DNA from: an uncultured Clostridia bacterium
Lineage (GTDB): Bacteria > Bacillota > Clostridia > Christensenellales > UBA3700
Direction of reading: 5' to 3'
Length of the DNA stretch: 64,000 nucleotides
Assembly (NCBI GenBank): GCA_947038565.1
Contig: CAMQWP010000001.1
Location: 192,381-256,380 of the forward strand
Shown: one piece after another, positions 9,496 to 19,270 of the stretch
Numbering within the stretch: position 1 is the first letter of the stretch
Layout: each line of letters begins with the position of its first letter
Made by a program: the position numbers and the translations under genes
Notes under the pieces: generated by a model
Database searches by the model: none
What the model saw: only the letters and a program-made list of their open reading frames with translations
Told to the model about the DNA's origin: nothing

Positions 9496-9796
9496 AAAAA
9501 TACCCCTCTATAGTTTATTTGACAATCCCCATCATCAATGTTGAAAATTATTACAATTTGTTTATTTATTATATAAATATGTATTTTTTTCTAACATATA
9601 ATACTTTTTATCTATATATAATAAACGTACAACAACTTATAGTAACATATTCATCGCACATTTGTCAAGGCGGTATCGACTTTTTAATGTAAAAATACTA
9701 TGATTTTGTATATTATGCAAATTATTGCTTGCACTTTAATTCTATATGTATTATTTTTCTTTTTTTCTTGACTAATGCATTTATGAGAAAATAAAA

Positions 9797-9826
9797 ATAG
9801 ATGGAATGTTATAACCCCATCTATTA
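9797..9826 (-). terminator. terminator of the ESCRT-III/Vps4-like operon
   Basis: AATAGATGG (9797-9805) pairs with CCATCTATT (9818-9826); on the minus strand it is followed by a TTTTATTTT tract. The bases between 9496 and 9790 show nothing else. Confidence 0.75.
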
Positions 9827-9857
9827 CTTACTAGCCTTAAGATATTATATTTGTTGT

Positions 9858-10472
9858 CTATATCAATTCTTCTATTTTATCTATCTCTTCTACTGTAGGC
9901 ACATCGTTAAAAGCAGACATATCATCACTGATTGCTTGCTCATCAAACATGGCAAGTATGTCTTGTTGCCCTACTGACGAGCCATATATACTATCATTTT
10001 CTACATACGCCGACTCAGCCATGTCGAAGGTATCAAGCACGCTCTCCAAACTCTCTTCACTATTCATCTTAGTAGCATTTACACTATTTAGAAATTTAGA
10101 TAACTGAGCAGGTTGTTTTAACATTTCATTAAGCGAGATGTTTGCATTGTTAGATAAAAACTCTCTATCGTCCATTGCAGATTTCAGCTGATACATAGCA
10201 CTCATATTAGTCGCGATAAATTGCAGCCTCTTACCATACATTGCATTATTCTTCTTTAGGTTTTCTATGTTCTTAGCATAGAATACACGCATGTTTGTGT
10301 CTTTCTCGGCTTTACCCTTTGCAAATAATCCCGTAATAGTTACGTTGTTTTCTTCAATACTTGAGACAATGCTTTCTTGCTGTTTCTCTAGCTGAATTAT
10401 AGAGTCAACTACCTCAGTTCTTGATATCTTATCGAATTTAGTTTTTTTCTTAAATATGTCAAAAAAGCCCAT
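9858..10472 (-). CDS. second ESCRT-III (Snf7)-like protein, last gene of the operon
   Basis: A 204-residue, almost entirely helical, soluble protein. It begins MGFFDIFKKKTKFD, a short hydrophobic-then-basic start like the membrane-anchoring end of Snf7 proteins. Residues about 18-60 and 63-110 form two long charged helices (SIIQLEKQQESIVSSIEENN and AKNIENLKKNNAMYGKRLQFIATNMSAMYQLKSAM), laid out like the alpha1-alpha2 hairpin of ESCRT-III. The C-terminal third is acidic with further short helices and ends VPTVEEIDKIEELI, a possible ATPase-contact tail. It has no obvious MIM1 arginine/lysine end, unlike the first-gene paralogue. Nine bases separate it from the preceding gene. Assignment to the Snf7 fold is from pattern and context, not from a search. 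Confidence 0.6.
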   Translation of the reverse strand: MGFFDIFKKKTKFDKISRTEVVDSIIQLEKQQESIVSSIEENNVTITGLFAKGKAEKDTNMRVFYAKNIENLKKNNAMYGKRLQFIATNMSAMYQLKSAMDDREFLSNNANISLNEMLKQPAQLSKFLNSVNATKMNSEESLESVLDTFDMAESAYVENDSIYGSSVGQQDILAMFDEQAISDDMSAFNDVPTVEEIDKIEELI

Positions 10473-10481
10473 ATTTCCTCC

Positions 10482-10820
10482 TTAGATAACTATAGTTTTT
10501 CTCTCTGCGATTAACACTCTAAGCTCATTTATTTCATCTATCACTCTAGCATCTTTTTTCGGATTGCTTACGATTATTTTTATATCATCTAGTTTAGATA
10601 AAATTTTATGCTCTACTTTTTCTGCTGATGACAACTCGCTAGGACTAAGAAATTTCATATCCTCGCGTAAACTGTCTAGCATAAGTTTATAATCCTTATT
10701 TTCAGTCATCTCCATGAGTACTGATATACGGTTACATGCCATTAATTGCATGTCCTCAACTGTGTCTTTTACTAATTTTTTCTCGCGCTTATTTGCACGT
10801 CTTCTAGCTAAAAATCCCAT
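10482..10820 (-). CDS. short helical protein of the ESCRT-like operon (unknown)
   Basis: A 112-residue soluble helical protein, fourth in the operon. The start is the ATG at 10818-10820, preceded by GAGGAGG. It begins MGFLARRRANKREKKLVKDT, the same MGF-plus-basic opening as the two ESCRT-III-like proteins. Two or three helices with heptad-like spacing follow (EDMQLMACNRISVLMEM, KVEHKILSKLDDIKIIV, VIDEINELRVLIAERK). I do not recognise a family. It is about half the length of an ESCRT-III core, so it may be a reduced relative or an adaptor. Confidence 0.65.
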   Translation of the reverse strand: MGFLARRRANKREKKLVKDTVEDMQLMACNRISVLMEMTENKDYKLMLDSLREDMKFLSPSELSSAEKVEHKILSKLDDIKIIVSNPKKDARVIDEINELRVLIAERKTIVI

Positions 10821-10837
10821 GATTACATCCTCCTCAA

Positions 10838-11794
10838 TTATATTTCTTTGCCACACGTTTGACAAAACTTGCTGCCCGGAGCAACTACTGTACTGCAACT
10901 GCTACAGACTCTTGACATGCCTTGAGCCTCACCACAATTTCCGCAAAATTTACTACCCACTGGCATAGATATGCCACAATTTCCACAGAATACAGTATTG
11001 CTTTGTGCGACAGGTCTTGTAGCTTCAGCTACTTTTGTCACCACTCGTTCGTTACTGTCACGCTCTTCTTTGTCTATCTCTAGCTCTTCTTTGCGTAATT
11101 GTGCATGGCTGGTATCTTTTTGCTGAAGCATGTATCTTTCTTCCATTAACTTTATCCTAGTCGCTTTTATATCTTCAGGAAAGACAATATTATCGATAGT
11201 AAATGCTTTTAATACAACACCATACTCATCAAAACTATCAGTAAGCTCTACTTCTAACTGTTCAGAAAGGTTTTTCACATCTGATGCAAGATCAAAATAA
11301 CTAGTACCCTCATCGACCAATTTTCTAGCAAAAATATCCTTTACGTTAAGAGAAATAATGCTTTTCAGAAAGCTAACCAATGACTTAACATCAGCGATCT
11401 TGCCAGTGCCAAGTAATCTTTTGTACACTTTCATAGTGTTATTTATCTCGAAAACAACGGTACCGCTAGCACCTAAGTAAGCAGGCATCTTCGTATCAAC
11501 ATCGATAAATTCTATATGCGAAGGAGTGCCCCACAGCGACTGTAATCTGACTTCATTATTGATAAAAGTGATATCTATATCTATTTTTTTCTCGCCCTTT
11601 GGCTTAGCAATTTCATGCTTGCCCGACTGCATTATTTTCATGTCTGTACCATTGACAACAACTACCGCCTCAGTATTAACTGGAACCATTAAATATGCGT
11701 CTACCTTCACATCTCTATGTGCAGATCTAACTACTAGGTTATCGCCCATACCACTATCAAGTCTAATTATTAGATCATTATTAAAAATACCCAT
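10838..11794 (-). CDS. SPFH/band-7 protein with two C-terminal zinc ribbons
   Basis: A 318-residue protein. Residues about 15-215 form an SPFH (prohibitin/flotillin-type) domain, without a transmembrane helix. A charged helical linker (ATRIKLMEERYMLQQKDTSHAQLRKEELEIDKEE) leads to two treble-clef zinc ribbons, C270-C287 and C297-C314, with the repeated pattern CGNCG / GSKFCxxCG. The layout is that of Bacillus subtilis YdjI, encoded in an operon with PspA, itself a distant ESCRT-III relative. Here it lies 12 bases after the Vps4-like gene. It probably forms ring assemblies that recruit the ESCRT-like proteins to membrane; this role is inferred. Confidence 0.85.
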   Translation of the reverse strand: MGIFNNDLIIRLDSGMGDNLVVRSAHRDVKVDAYLMVPVNTEAVVVVNGTDMKIMQSGKHEIAKPKGEKKIDIDITFINNEVRLQSLWGTPSHIEFIDVDTKMPAYLGASGTVVFEINNTMKVYKRLLGTGKIADVKSLVSFLKSIISLNVKDIFARKLVDEGTSYFDLASDVKNLSEQLEVELTDSFDEYGVVLKAFTIDNIVFPEDIKATRIKLMEERYMLQQKDTSHAQLRKEELEIDKEERDSNERVVTKVAEATRPVAQSNTVFCGNCGISMPVGSKFCGNCGEAQGMSRVCSSCSTVVAPGSKFCQTCGKEI

Positions 11795-11806
11795 TTAATT
11801 TTCCTC

Positions 11807-12961
11807 CTACTTTTTACCTTTCATGTCTTGTTCAAACTTTTGCAGAGCCTTGATATCAGTCTGTAATACTGACGAACTTGATGACTCCATCACTTCATTA
11901 AAATGCTGTCTTGTGATAGGTAGCATTTCTTTGCTTTGCATTTTGATTAAATCTTTTAATATACACATTTTGATTCTATCGCACAGCTCATTACAATCCG
12001 CACCATTATACCCTTCAGTAGCAACGGCCATTTCTGCAATAGTTACACCATTCAGTTGCATATCCTTTAGCTTTCTATTTATAAGATATTCTCTTGCTTC
12101 AAGATCTGGCAATGGCACATATAATAGCTCATTGAATCGACCTGGTCTTAATAATGCCGAGTCAATATCCCAAGGTCTATTAGTGGCTGCCAGTATCAAA
12201 AGTGTATTTTCACTGTCACCAAAACCTTGTATTTGAGCAAGTAACTCAGGCACAATTCTATTCATAACAGTAGAATTTCCGCCACGCTTTACGCCTATAG
12301 CCTCGAACTCGTCGAAAAATATTACTGCGCGTTCATGACTTCTTGCTTCAGCGAATAGATTTTTAAGATTTTTCTCCGCCTCACCAAACCACTTACTAAC
12401 TATATCACTACACTTAACTTGATAAAAATTCCCCCCGACCTCGCTAGCTATAGCCTTTGCGATCATGGTTTTACCTGTACCAGGTAGACCATACATTAGT
12501 ATTCCGCCACCTGCTTTTAGGTCGACCATTTTATAATACTCGGGGTACTGCAACGGTAGTAATATCCTGTTTTTGACAGCATCCTTTACTTCGTTTAGTC
12601 CCGCTACGTCTTCAAAAGTAATGCCCGTGTCTCCTGTCGCAGTAAACGAATTACCATCATCTTCGCCATTTTCTTTTCCATCTTCCCCTAGACTGTTGCC
12701 ACAATTACTATTCGATTTCTTAACAGTATTACTAGTAGGACGCACGGAAGTGTCTATACTCTCAGCAATCTCGATAATGTTTTTCGCTCTCTCCATTTGA
12801 CTACGTTTTACAGAGCCGTCATTTTCTTTCGCTGATGAGATAAGCATTTCTGCAGCTTTCATTAAAAACTTTTTGCAAGCAAGCATGTCTCCAGCATTTT
12901 TATAAACGATAGCTTTATCATAATATAATTTAAACATTTCATAATGTTGACTACCAGCCAT
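11807..12961 (-). CDS. Vps4-type AAA ATPase with N-terminal MIT-like domain
   Basis: A 384-residue ATPase. Residues 1-72 are three amphipathic helices laid out like a MIT domain (YEMFKLYYDKAIVYKNAGD, ACKKFLMKAAEMLISSAKE, SQMERAKNIIEIAESI). A low-complexity linker (73-112) leads to one AAA module: Walker A GLPGTGKT (158-165), Walker B VIFFDE (213-218), sensor-1 N261, arginine fingers R272/R275. The pore-loop stretch CSDIVSKWFGEAEKNLKNLF (184-203) is the hallmark of the Vps4/katanin/spastin clade. The C-terminal stretch PITRQHFNEVM...SVLQTDIKALQKFEQDM matches the closing helices of Vps4. There seems no room for the eukaryotic beta domain. Its ribosome site AAGGAG lies in the last codons of the upstream gene, so the two are coupled. 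Confidence 0.88.
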   Translation of the reverse strand: MAGSQHYEMFKLYYDKAIVYKNAGDMLACKKFLMKAAEMLISSAKENDGSVKRSQMERAKNIIEIAESIDTSVRPTSNTVKKSNSNCGNSLGEDGKENGEDDGNSFTATGDTGITFEDVAGLNEVKDAVKNRILLPLQYPEYYKMVDLKAGGGILMYGLPGTGKTMIAKAIASEVGGNFYQVKCSDIVSKWFGEAEKNLKNLFAEARSHERAVIFFDEFEAIGVKRGGNSTVMNRIVPELLAQIQGFGDSENTLLILAATNRPWDIDSALLRPGRFNELLYVPLPDLEAREYLINRKLKDMQLNGVTIAEMAVATEGYNGADCNELCDRIKMCILKDLIKMQSKEMLPITRQHFNEVMESSSSSVLQTDIKALQKFEQDMKGKK

Positions 12962-12964
12962 ATA

Positions 12965-13549
12965 TTACTCCTTAATGCTTTGCTTTAAGTCCGCAAGTGA
13001 CTTCTCAATATCCATATCAAACTGTGCATCCTCTTCGTCTTCCTGAGCCGCTAAATACTTCTCCACCTCTTTATCATCAATAGATGCACCTTGATTTGCA
13101 ACACTGCTATAACTATCGTTAGTAGTGTCCATTAATATCTCAAGCTGTGCAGACGCCATCTCTACGCCAGTAATAGCACTTTCAAATTCTTTTTGCACTT
13201 TGACAAAATTCATATCTTTAGTAGTTTTACTCATCTCTACACTAAGCATACTCATGCCGTCAAGAAATAATGATGTTACTTTTGTTAGATCTTTCATCTG
13301 TGACGCTAGCTCAAAATTAAGCTGCATTTCTTTAGCCTTTTTTTGTTGCATCATCGCCATCTTCAGCCCTGATAAAGCAAGATTATACTGTGCGTCCAAT
13401 CCTTCTTGCTTTGCCCTCTTTGCGGCTTCAAGATATTTGCCTTTTTGATCTTCTAACTCACGTATATGCTTGTTAAATTGGTTAATAGTTTTCTTAATAA
13501 TCATACGTTGTTCCATTTCTTTCTCTTGCTTAGACTTAAAAAACCCCAT
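12965..13549 (-). CDS. ESCRT-III (Snf7/CHMP)-like protein with MIM1-type tail, first gene of the operon
   Basis: A 194-residue soluble helical protein. It begins MGFFKSKQEKEMEQ; residues 17-50 and 52-98 form a long basic helical hairpin (NQFNKHIRELEDQKGKYLEAAKRAKQEG, then NLALSGLKMAMMQQKKAKEM), followed by LFLDGMSMLSVEMSKTTKDMNFVKVQKEFESA, which has the order and spacing of CHMP alpha3/alpha4. The rest is acidic. The last residues, D178-M-D-I181-E-K-S184-L185-A-D-L188-K189, fit the MIM1 pattern (D/E)xxLxxRLxxLK with Ser for Arg. Three bases separate it from the Vps4-like gene. Net basic first half and acidic second half are typical of ESCRT-III. It should polymerise on membrane and be remodelled by the ATPase; that is inferred. 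Confidence 0.78.
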   Translation of the reverse strand: MGFFKSKQEKEMEQRMIIKKTINQFNKHIRELEDQKGKYLEAAKRAKQEGLDAQYNLALSGLKMAMMQQKKAKEMQLNFELASQMKDLTKVTSLFLDGMSMLSVEMSKTTKDMNFVKVQKEFESAITGVEMASAQLEILMDTTNDSYSSVANQGASIDDKEVEKYLAAQEDEEDAQFDMDIEKSLADLKQSIKE

Positions 13550-13621
13550 TTTTTTCTCCTCGTAATGCTAAAAGCAAACTTTATTTTTTCTCTATATAAT
13601 TCGACTACTTAAATCACGTAA

Positions 13622-13650
13622 ATCAAAAGCACGCAATTAAGCGTTGTCAA
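13622..13650 (-). promoter_or_regulatory. candidate promoter of the ESCRT-III/Vps4-like operon
   Basis: On the minus strand TTGACA at 13645-13650, a 17-base spacer, and TTTGAT at 13622-13627. The -10 is poor, which would suit an inducible operon; the leader is about 70 bases. Confidence 0.4.
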
Positions 13651-13870
13651 ATAATTGTATTTTAACTGCAATCCTTAATATATAATATTTAGAATTGGAT
13701 ATATATTACATAATACCATTTTTTGCACTAAAAAGTCAATACTCATTACGCATACGGCGTATATTTTACATTTTAAAGCTTCTAAAAGCCAAAGTTAGCC
13801 TTTATTTGTCCGTAATGATAAATTTTTCTTGCATTAGTTTATTATATTTTACCCGTAAACCGCAAAGAAA

Positions 13871-16791: not shown

Positions 16792-18990
16792 CTATTTTAA
16801 CCAACTTATACCATTTATGCCTTTATCCCAGAAATACCCAAAAATATAGCTGTCTTTTTCGTTAGGCATTCTTAGATATAGCTTATCACAGTTATAAAAT
16901 GCTCTCTCACCTATCTCATTAAGACTCTCGCCGATATAGAATGATGTAAGACTTGTACAATTATAAAACGCCGTTTGATTTATTTTAATTAGTCCTTTGA
17001 TTTTTGGTGCTGTTACTAGACTCGTACAATTACGATATGCATCAACTGGTATTTCTGTAATCGTGTCAAAGCCCACGCCTCTTACGATTATCAGGCTCGA
17101 ACTGTTTGTAAATAGCGGATGAGCTGACATTTCAGCATCGATACAAATTTCCTTTATAATATAATTGTTGGTAAAATAATCCAGATCTACAAATTTAACT
17201 TTAAGATTCCCTATTTCTTCAGCTATCTCTACCATTAGCACGTCACCTTCAACGTGTGAAAATTCATAATACTCTTTGCTTTCGTTCAGCGTGTATGCAA
17301 CATTATTATACATAACTTCCTGCTCGACATTTACATCCGTCGACGCATTAACATCAACATTCATTGTTACTACGCTTACTACTGCTATTACAATAATAAA
17401 CAGACTAATTAATATGAATGGTAGAATAGGACTTTTTTTCTTCGCTGCCTTTTCTTCCTTTTTATGCTTACGATACTTCTCTTCATGATATTTTTTATTA
17501 GCACTTGTTTTCTTAAAAGTATTATCCTTGTTGTTGTCATAATAGCTTGGAGTACTACCATTAAAAGTAGTCTTTACATTATTAGCTATGTTTTTTCCTG
17601 TTATGACTACGTTATTAAGAACATCAGTGATTTTGCGTTCTAAAGACGGATTACCATAGTTTTGTTGTGCATTATTGTGGTTGTTTGTACTTGACTGCCT
17701 CGCCACAAGATTCTCTTTTGCTCTCATAACCAGCCCTGTCCATATTATTTTTTGCTCATGGTCACTAGAGTAAGTTATTGCATTAATATAGTTTATATCC
17801 GAAGTATAGTCAGCCAATACTCCCGCAATATCTTTTTCGTCCGAAATACGATTGTTTGCAAGCATTTTAAGCCACCACATCTCGCCACAGTTTGGTGCTA
17901 ATTTTTGCACCTCTTCTAATACTTCTATTGCCTTTATAAAGTTAAGCGAATATAACATACCACGTGTCTCTTGCAACATCTGATCGACCTTAATATTCTC
18001 TCTCGCACCATTCGAATAATTTGTATTGTAGGATTTCCCCTCCATACTTTTTTCATACTTTGCCCTATCTATCTCTCTAAATGACCTAATACATAGATCA
18101 GCAAGCTGTCTCTTAGTATTACCTACACCGTCCACCCACATTTTTCCATCGAAAAAGTCGTTAAACAATGATGTATGTACACTATTATCTATCTTGTACT
18201 CTACTCTTGCTTTGCCTAATGATTTTGCTATATTGATCTCGCTTTTGATGTCTTTTGACATCATTGCGTCTTCACTAGATATTACCAGAAAGATAGAACA
18301 ACTATTTATAGCTTTAGTTATATTATCCCAATAGTTAATTGTATCGTTTGGTCGCAAGTTCCTAGTGGATATCCAACACTTATGACTATCTTCCTCTAGC
18401 TCTGTCACTACCTGCTCTGCCACATCTATATCGGTACTTCTATGACACACGAATATGTCTCTAGGAATATCATCATAATTATCTTCCATAGCACGTCTTG
18501 TTGCGTATTGTGCTTTGTATAATTTCAACTCATCACAATTATCTACGCCATCAAGAGCCATTATGAAAGACTCTATATCTATCCTATCTCTTAGGTCACT
18601 GTACTCGTATACGTGACTTAATACACGCCTTGTGTCACTTGGTGTCAAGTTCACACTTTCACTACCGTAATAATCTTTAATATACGCGTTATGTCCTAAT
18701 ACATTTTCGGCGTATGCATAGTAATATTGAGACAGCCCATCACCAGCGACTATCTCTAATATATCATAAGACGACTTGGAGATGCTTCCTATGTCATTAG
18801 CACCCACAGCGTCACTTTGTATATTTCTAAGGTTTTTTAGTTTGCAAGAAATTGCCTCGTCAATACTGCCTAGTTTTTTGCTAGACTCTACAAAATATTC
18901 ACTTCCGCAAGCGGGACACTCGGCAACACTTACGCCCTCATCAGCACTTACATTCGCCCCGCACATAGGGCATTTCATTAATTCTAACAT
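16792..18990 (-). CDS. TIR - transmembrane - LRR protein with N-terminal zinc ribbon
   Basis: A 732-residue protein, read from the ATG at 18988-18990 (AAAGGA before it) rather than an earlier in-frame start. Order: zinc ribbon (CPMCG..., CPACG, residues 7-29); a helical region; a TIR domain at about 176-305 (DIFVCHRSTDIDVAEQVV, CWISTRNLRPNDT, CSIFLVISSEDAMMSKDIKSEINIA); a helical, TPR-like stretch with EVQKLAPNCGEMWWLKML; an Asn-rich linker; a lysine-rich stretch before one membrane helix (about 520-543, ILPFILISLFIIVIAVVSVVTM); and a C-terminal BspA-type leucine-rich domain (CTSLVTAP, INQTAFYNCTSLTSFYI, IGERAFYNCDKL). The lysines before the helix put TIR inside and LRR outside. E251 in KSEINIA sits where the TIR NAD-glycohydrolase glutamate is expected. 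Confidence 0.85.
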   Translation of the reverse strand: MLELMKCPMCGANVSADEGVSVAECPACGSEYFVESSKKLGSIDEAISCKLKNLRNIQSDAVGANDIGSISKSSYDILEIVAGDGLSQYYYAYAENVLGHNAYIKDYYGSESVNLTPSDTRRVLSHVYEYSDLRDRIDIESFIMALDGVDNCDELKLYKAQYATRRAMEDNYDDIPRDIFVCHRSTDIDVAEQVVTELEEDSHKCWISTRNLRPNDTINYWDNITKAINSCSIFLVISSEDAMMSKDIKSEINIAKSLGKARVEYKIDNSVHTSLFNDFFDGKMWVDGVGNTKRQLADLCIRSFREIDRAKYEKSMEGKSYNTNYSNGARENIKVDQMLQETRGMLYSLNFIKAIEVLEEVQKLAPNCGEMWWLKMLANNRISDEKDIAGVLADYTSDINYINAITYSSDHEQKIIWTGLVMRAKENLVARQSSTNNHNNAQQNYGNPSLERKITDVLNNVVITGKNIANNVKTTFNGSTPSYYDNNKDNTFKKTSANKKYHEEKYRKHKKEEKAAKKKSPILPFILISLFIIVIAVVSVVTMNVDVNASTDVNVEQEVMYNNVAYTLNESKEYYEFSHVEGDVLMVEIAEEIGNLKVKFVDLDYFTNNYIIKEICIDAEMSAHPLFTNSSSLIIVRGVGFDTITEIPVDAYRNCTSLVTAPKIKGLIKINQTAFYNCTSLTSFYIGESLNEIGERAFYNCDKLYLRMPNEKDSYIFGYFWDKGINGISWLK

Positions 18991-19270
18991 CTTTATTCCT
19001 TTACGTACAAAACATTGTTGCGTTATTATAAAAAATTCGTTTACGGCCGATTTAAACGCGTACCGTGTCACTTCATAATATTATAATATTAAAACAATTA
19101 TACTATATTTATGCCAAATTGTCAATGTTAATTTACTCATAGCACGTTACACCTAGCATAGCACTCATATATTGAACTGCTTAGTTTATCAATTCAGTCG
19201 TCAAATACATATATCTGCAAATAATAACTTACATAAATGATTGGCAACAACCTTTATCGCATATAACAAA

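Follow-up and report, generated by a model that had tools for sequence, protein, structure and literature searches.

We analysed a 64,000-nucleotide stretch of contig CAMQWP010000001.1 from an uncultured Clostridia bacterium (the window; forward-strand positions 192,381–256,380), and our data indicate, with a probability of about 60%, that a five-gene operon within it (genes A–E; Table 1) is an accessory system for membrane remodelling in gut Clostridia that has the character of a cassette, works in the manner of ESCRT-III (endosomal sorting complex required for transport III) and Vps4 and is coupled to immune-type effectors. An earlier note, made from the sequence alone, had described a tight operon for a Snf7/CHMP-like protein (A), a Vps4-type AAA ATPase with an MIT-like N-terminus (B), an SPFH protein with two zinc ribbons (C), a short helical protein (D) and a second Snf7-like protein (E). 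The operon itself was borne out: its five open reading frames all lie on the minus strand with intergenic gaps of 3–17 bp, and a purine-rich ribosome-binding-type sequence can be read 5′ of every gene start. That this is more than chance is argued by the recurrence of the operon in 92 distinct loci, together with a non-synonymous divergence (dN) of 0.09 against a saturated synonymous divergence (dS) of ~2.4 for A and its 87%-identical sibling.

Profile comparisons and a predicted structure confirm A, at the level of the family, as an ESCRT-III/Snf7-type protein, as the earlier note had read it. The Pfam Snf7 model was matched by 7/33 relatives of A at E<0.1, with a best value of 2.8e-8, and alignment of the A family by hhalign with a Snf7/Shrub/CHMP2A profile gave a P value of 1.9e-4 over 116 columns, compared with 0.38 for the reversed profile. 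A PDB profile search with A placed CHMP2A second among 177,635 sequences (E 1, positions 8–142), and the AlphaFold2 (AF2) model of A (predicted local distance difference test score, pLDDT, of 78) had CHMP2A, CdvB, CHMP3, Asgard ESCRT-IIIB and CHMP1B as its top Foldseek matches, all with E values of 0.08 or worse. Here and below, the comparison sequences for Vps4, CdvC, Snf7 and PspA were PDB entries. Membership of the PspA/Vipp1 family was rejected for want of profile support, as the Pfam scans returned no PspA match for A and hhalign against PspA/Vipp1 gave a P value of 0.11. Beyond a variable linker, the tail of A is conserved (0.76 versus 0.37–0.56), and a helix such as IDKEMEELR or IEKELEALK ends 73 of the 77 cognate A proteins, as against a mean of 1% in shuffled sequences, for a pattern that was fitted after the data had been seen; a first, looser MIM1 pattern caught 32% of A proteins. 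We take this helix to resemble the MIM1 of Vps2/CHMP2. Canonical MIM1 has a basic residue at its centre, which is replaced here (present in 0/97), and a strict MIM1 with a basic centre was rejected on this count. At the other end of the protein, many A proteins carry a short hydrophobic-basic motif.

A-type domains were also met in other settings. In locus L046 (5966–7633, minus strand), a Snf7-like domain (Pfam Snf7 2.4e-5) is fused to a RuvB-like AAA module with a RuvB C-terminal domain, and in L041 (9506–11419, minus strand) and L044 (9769–11670, minus strand) an A-family, Snf7-like N-terminus shares one chain with an FtsK/SpoIIIE DNA-translocase motor, the A part being recognized by the family profile and FtsK, in L041, by Pfam. 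We counted these fusions to motors in favour of ESCRT-like remodelling. Locus L047 (5791–11474, minus strand) holds three A-type and two B-type genes, which suggests filaments built from several subunits.

B is a classical AAA ATPase (PF00004 2e-38), with a P-loop in 90/90 B proteins and the pore-loop block SDIVSKWFGEAEK, and its model comprises a three-helix N-domain (residues 2–68), a disordered linker and the AAA core. The N-domain matched Pfam MIT in one of 15 relatives (1.2e-6), and its profile matched in the PDB, besides the MIT domain of a chitin synthase (0.003), an entry under the name of p60 katanin (0.17), which is presumably the MIT domain of Sulfolobus CdvC. Weak TPR matches are returned by the same domain, the window copy being weak for MIT and matching TPR_8 at 0.0065; the matches listed by VIA for the B model were all to AAA, the part of B that this fold comparison covered. 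Vps4_C was found in 14/18 B relatives, the best at 2.2e-5, with the window protein at 0.0057, below the cut-off; the D2 domain of p97 has a helix equivalent to the Vps4_C oligomerization helix. Against Acidianus CdvC, the B-family profile aligned over positions 4–366 with 264 bits, compared with 240 for Cdc48 D2 and 206 for FtsH. These data confirm what the earlier note had read in B: an AAA ATPase that starts with an MIT-like domain and holds the pore-loop block and Vps4_C-type helices. On its place in the Vps4 clade the signals are divided: the full-length CdvC match favours it, as does a tree of few references (neither katanin nor spastin among them) and long branches, in which Cdc48/FtsH split from Vps4, CdvC and B with support of 96/93, while a grouping with Cdc48 D2 is not rejected (see below). 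We gave up a firm tree placement on account of those long branches and few references. The B proteins group apart, on a long branch, and have diverged widely among themselves. B has the architecture of Vps4, and common descent with Vps4 is likely. In its own genome the B gene has no close paralogue, the second match being 34% identical and consistent with FtsH.

The B family also varies in size, and 21/90 B proteins have two P-loops; variants of ~690–730 amino acids in L023, L024, L030, L032 and L033 contain two AAA modules, and other variants carry an extra C-terminal domain beyond the AAA core.

The reading of C as an SPFH protein with two zinc ribbons held, and the ribbons are retained in 72/84 relatives. 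D returned no family match and is consistent with a short helical protein, with a predicted N-terminal membrane helix in 46/76 relatives, and the E proteins open with a short hydrophobic-basic motif like the one in many A proteins.

The 92 loci, counted after removal of duplicates, come almost all from a single order of gut Clostridia, that of Christensenella and its relatives, and, having been collected by similarity to A, are not an independent sample. The gene order C-D-E-A-B occurs in 79/110 loci (some genomes counted twice), and the order A-B-C-D-E in the window and its sibling, L052. When 247 genomes of the order were searched with A, 28 (that of the window among them) contained relatives, and the only other genome sampled from the same genus contained none. 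In profile searches, a 398-genome sample of the phylum gave a match in the window's own genome only and a 391-genome sample of the class gave matches in same-order genomes only; on this count wide spread through the phylum was rejected. A scan of 84,980 species genomes, performed with a narrow A alignment because the broad one was short of conserved stretches, yielded 80 named loci, the named relatives being uncultured Clostridia, Christensenella and Candidatus Coproplasma. Within the order, A proteins diverge to ~15–20% identity. Nearly all relatives come from metagenome-assembled genomes; contamination is spoken against by the length of the contigs, by bacterial neighbours such as ftsZ and nrdR and by the many assemblies in which the operon recurs.

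The partner genes, which had been overlooked in the first reading, shift the likely role of the operon towards membrane surveillance or defence. At 75/92 loci, zinc-ribbon/TPR proteins belonging to one cluster are encoded next to or within the locus, and 120/122 members of the cluster are on the operon strand; as the cluster was joined by single linkage, a few members may share repeats only. TIR domains were found with a custom profile at 49/92 loci, including the window, and several were confirmed by Pfam, among them the window gene at 19071–16792. Across 15 genomes, 11/22 TIR_2 matches fell within 10 kb of gene A where ~0.3 would be expected, a statistic chosen after the data had been seen. 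In addition, a zinc-ribbon protein with a trypsin-like peptidase stands beside 28 loci (Trypsin_2 in 8/8 newly tested members), and BrxL is present at 9/92, where it was the sole component of BREX (bacteriophage exclusion) that we recognized, no core set such as PglX and BrxC being met at the loci. The TIR and trypsin-like partners are swapped between loci. In two genomes (G059, locus L025, and G213, locus L157), C-D-E-A-B-BrxL-TIR form one seven-gene stretch ending at nrdR, and in L025 this cassette lies downstream of ftsZ-spoIIGA-sigE-sigG. In G222, G098, G005 and the window's own genome (G000), ylmC directly adjoins nrdR, the operon of G222 being elsewhere; this adjacency in relatives, where the site is empty, indicates that the seven genes came in or were lost together. 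The gene flanking the window copy is absent from the same-genus genome. Patchy spread, movement as a BrxL-TIR cassette and the swapping of partners together give the operon the look of an accessory conflict system. As it usually has TIR or protease genes of a sort typical of immune systems for neighbours, it may serve bacteria in membrane surveillance or in defence. Besides the window TIR-LRR gene (16792–19071), whose product has an N-terminal zinc ribbon, TIR_2 was found in a single further gene of that genome.

On this basis we can outline how such a system might work. C, with its SPFH domain and zinc ribbons, and the often membrane-anchored D would together provide a platform at the inner membrane face, on which A, probably with E, would assemble as an ESCRT-III-type filament with the short hydrophobic N-terminus of A inserted. 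B would use its MIT-like domain to dock on the MIM1-like helix in the tail of A, and its AAA ring would extract subunits, leading to constriction, repair or turnover of the filament. Homology and the precedent of YdjI and PspA in Bacillus subtilis are what suggest these steps, and polymerization, MIT–MIM binding and fission or repair by the operon proteins are put forward as predictions. Zinc-ribbon TIR or trypsin-like partners might be tethered to the platform as sensors or effectors, so that membrane damage, for example by phage, would evoke repair and/or a NAD-depleting or proteolytic response; for this coupling, and for a role in defence, it is the gene context that speaks. More tentatively, and with somewhat less than even odds, we propose that a mobile immune cassette has at its core a complete ESCRT-III/MIT-AAA machine, native to bacteria, which surveys and repairs the membrane, with the TIR, trypsin-like and BrxL partners as its effectors.

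Several observations weigh against the view of the operon as an ESCRT-like, effector-coupled cassette. The window copy of A matched Pfam Snf7 at an E value of 0.22 only; this weak score does not disqualify A, since the same model found no protein above the cut-off even in Sulfolobus acidocaldarius. VIA Z values of 10–11 for the A model are common to ESCRT-III chains and unrelated helical hairpins, so that the fold alone is no proof of ESCRT-III identity. The AAA domain of B is about equally close to Cdc48/p97 D2 and to Vps4, and a clade of B with Cdc48 D2 was not rejected (approximately unbiased test, AU, P=0.127). The second Snf7-like protein of the earlier note was not confirmed: none of 17 E members matched Snf7 in Pfam, a PDB profile search did not show the kinship either, and hhalign of E against A gave P values of 0.013–0.048, no better than some reversed controls. 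With respect to the partners, the catalytic-type Glu column of the TIR domains is E in only 41/57. Finally, in one large clade the locus occupies a fixed chromosomal place, as if stably inherited, and plasmids, phages and IMG/VR viral contigs contained no copy of the operon, by which a phage- or plasmid-borne element is rejected. Of the bacterial ESCRT operon first proposed, the core of A with an MIT-AAA ATPase and SPFH protein has stood, and extends to a whole family of loci, whereas E as a second Snf7 is unproven and the suggested sporulation role unlikely.

Among the alternatives, the one that best survives, if still rather doubtful, is a housekeeping function in envelope-stress repair like that of PspA-YdjGHI and with no immune role, in which the filament would stabilize or repair the membrane, the AAA protein would recycle it and the TIR-type domains would act as scaffolds only. 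An SPFH protein paired with a member of the ESCRT-III superfamily is known from B. subtilis PspA-YdjI (PMC8581546), and the fixed chromosomal neighbours in one clade and the TIR domains lacking the usual catalytic-type Glu point the same way; moreover, there is no clear PspA in the window's own genome, so that the operon could stand in for it. The patchy distribution, the movement of the cassette with BrxL and TIR and the exchange of TIR and trypsin-like partners argue against this function. Outside the window, a 63-amino-acid frame near a contig end (G000:C1:339125–339283) gave a weak PspA match (5.9e-4), the only PspA match in that genome.

That gut Clostridia acquired an archaeal ESCRT locus by recent horizontal transfer is unlikely, although an old transfer is possible. 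Archaeal Meth_adaptin ESCRT loci also hold an SPFH-zinc-ribbon protein (PMC11188069), and B has kept the layout of CdvC, but the long branch and wide internal divergence of the B clade and the low identities among A proteins are at odds with a recent arrival, and the set of D, E, TIR and trypsin-like genes is absent from the archaeal description (PMC11188069). Slightly less probable still is that A and B have no kinship with ESCRT-III and Vps4: such a view can draw on the unrejected grouping of B with Cdc48 D2, the weak TPR matches of its N-domain and the weakness of the window copy of A when taken alone, but A relatives reach Snf7 at E values as low as 2.8e-8, reversed controls fail, the match of B to CdvC runs through the whole protein and takes in the MIT region, and the tail of A is MIM1-like. 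A Cdv-like division or sporulation machine is the least probable of all, for although ESCRT-III with an MIT-AAA ATPase is the division core in some archaea and the L025 cassette lies downstream of division and sporulation genes, replacement of FtsZ and a sporulation role are made unlikely by the presence of FtsZ in 15/15 genomes examined and by the lack of a Spo0A match in 2/15, both of which carry the operon, and the operon is missing from most relatives of the order, with the ftsZ-nrdR site empty in relatives.

The features of the operon and its surroundings, on a 340-kb contig of a 2.09 Mb genome that is 95.6% complete, are collected in Table 1. Terminator-like hairpins were found at 8 sites, compared with 1.7 in shuffled sequences.

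Table 1 Features of the operon and its neighbourhood, in window positions
Feature	Position	Strand	Basis
Gene A, ESCRT-III/Snf7-type helical protein, 194 aa	12965..13549	-	Snf7 matches of relatives, hhalign, Foldseek
MIM1-like C-terminal helix of A, residues ~178-190	12980..13018	-	Conserved island beyond variable linker
Gene B, Vps4-like AAA ATPase, 384 aa	11807..12961	-	PF00004, Vps4_C in relatives, CdvC profile match
MIT-like N-terminal domain of B, residues 2-68	12758..12958	-	Three-helix model, Pfam/PDB profile matches
Gene C, SPFH/Band-7 with C-terminal double zinc ribbon, 318 aa	10838..11794	-	Band_7_1 2e-14, DZR 5e-9
Gene D, small helical protein, 112 aa	10482..10820	-	Conserved family at same operon place
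Gene E, helical protein, 204 aa	9858..10472	-	Conserved family; without Snf7 match
Promoter-like site upstream of A	13710..13739	-	Consensus match only; count not above shuffles
Terminator-like hairpin after E	9796..9825	-	12-pair stem, T-rich tail
Second hairpin, between operon and upstream neighbour gene	13898-13870		Sequence scan
Probable partner, zinc ribbon + TIR + BspA-type LRR	16792..19071	-	TIR_2 2.6e-12, LRR_5 1.9e-12; two genes separate it from the operon

The membrane-cutting ESCRT-III/Vps4 machine is known from archaea and eukaryotes; reviews deny bacteria a Vps4, of which they are described as having no clear homologue (PMC7615534), and the open-licence literature, supplements excluded, contained no description of a TIR-linked or bacterial ESCRT–Vps4 system. 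A conserved operon that joins an ESCRT-III-type protein to an MIT-AAA ATPase and an SPFH protein in bacteria would alter this view, and makes it possible to ask in bacterial cells how the turnover of ESCRT-III by AAA ATPases arose. The TIR, protease and BrxL genes that regularly accompany the operon suggest that membrane repair and immunity may be linked in bacteria, which can be tested; if true, the proposal of a native immune cassette would be the first to connect ESCRT-type membrane remodelling with TIR immunity in bacteria.

Four known systems invite comparison. Ravi et al. (2024; PMC11237479) report that VPS4-like ATPases have been transferred to bacteria and that PspA occurs next to a protein carrying two AAA domains, such double-AAA proteins being like the B proteins with two P-loops (21/90) found here; in the accessible part of that report, however, Snf7 is replaced in the Vps4 transfers by an unrelated TPR/6TM protein, and the present gene set is not described. 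The archaeal Meth_adaptin ESCRT loci (Makarova et al., 2024; PMC11188069) likewise combine Vps4 with a protein of SPFH, coiled coil and zinc ribbon, but ours are bacterial, have TIR and trypsin-like partners and showed no recognizable adaptin-type, GOLD or ProX partner. In B. subtilis, YdjI, an SPFH protein, is needed to bring PspA to the membrane (PMC8581546), so that PspA-YdjGHI shares with our operon an ESCRT-III-superfamily protein encoded together with an SPFH recruiter, although PspA there takes the place of the Snf7-type A and its four genes include neither a Vps4-like ATPase nor TIR. The archaeal Cdv system (CdvB–CdvC) is alike in that an ESCRT-III-type protein with a C-terminal MIM-like helix is encoded beside an MIT-AAA ATPase, CdvC being matched by B along its whole length. 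In contrast with Cdv, the present operon, in whose five genes no CdvA-type gene was recognized, belongs to bacterial hosts with FtsZ, brings SPFH, D, E and TIR or protease partners, and has an accessory distribution.

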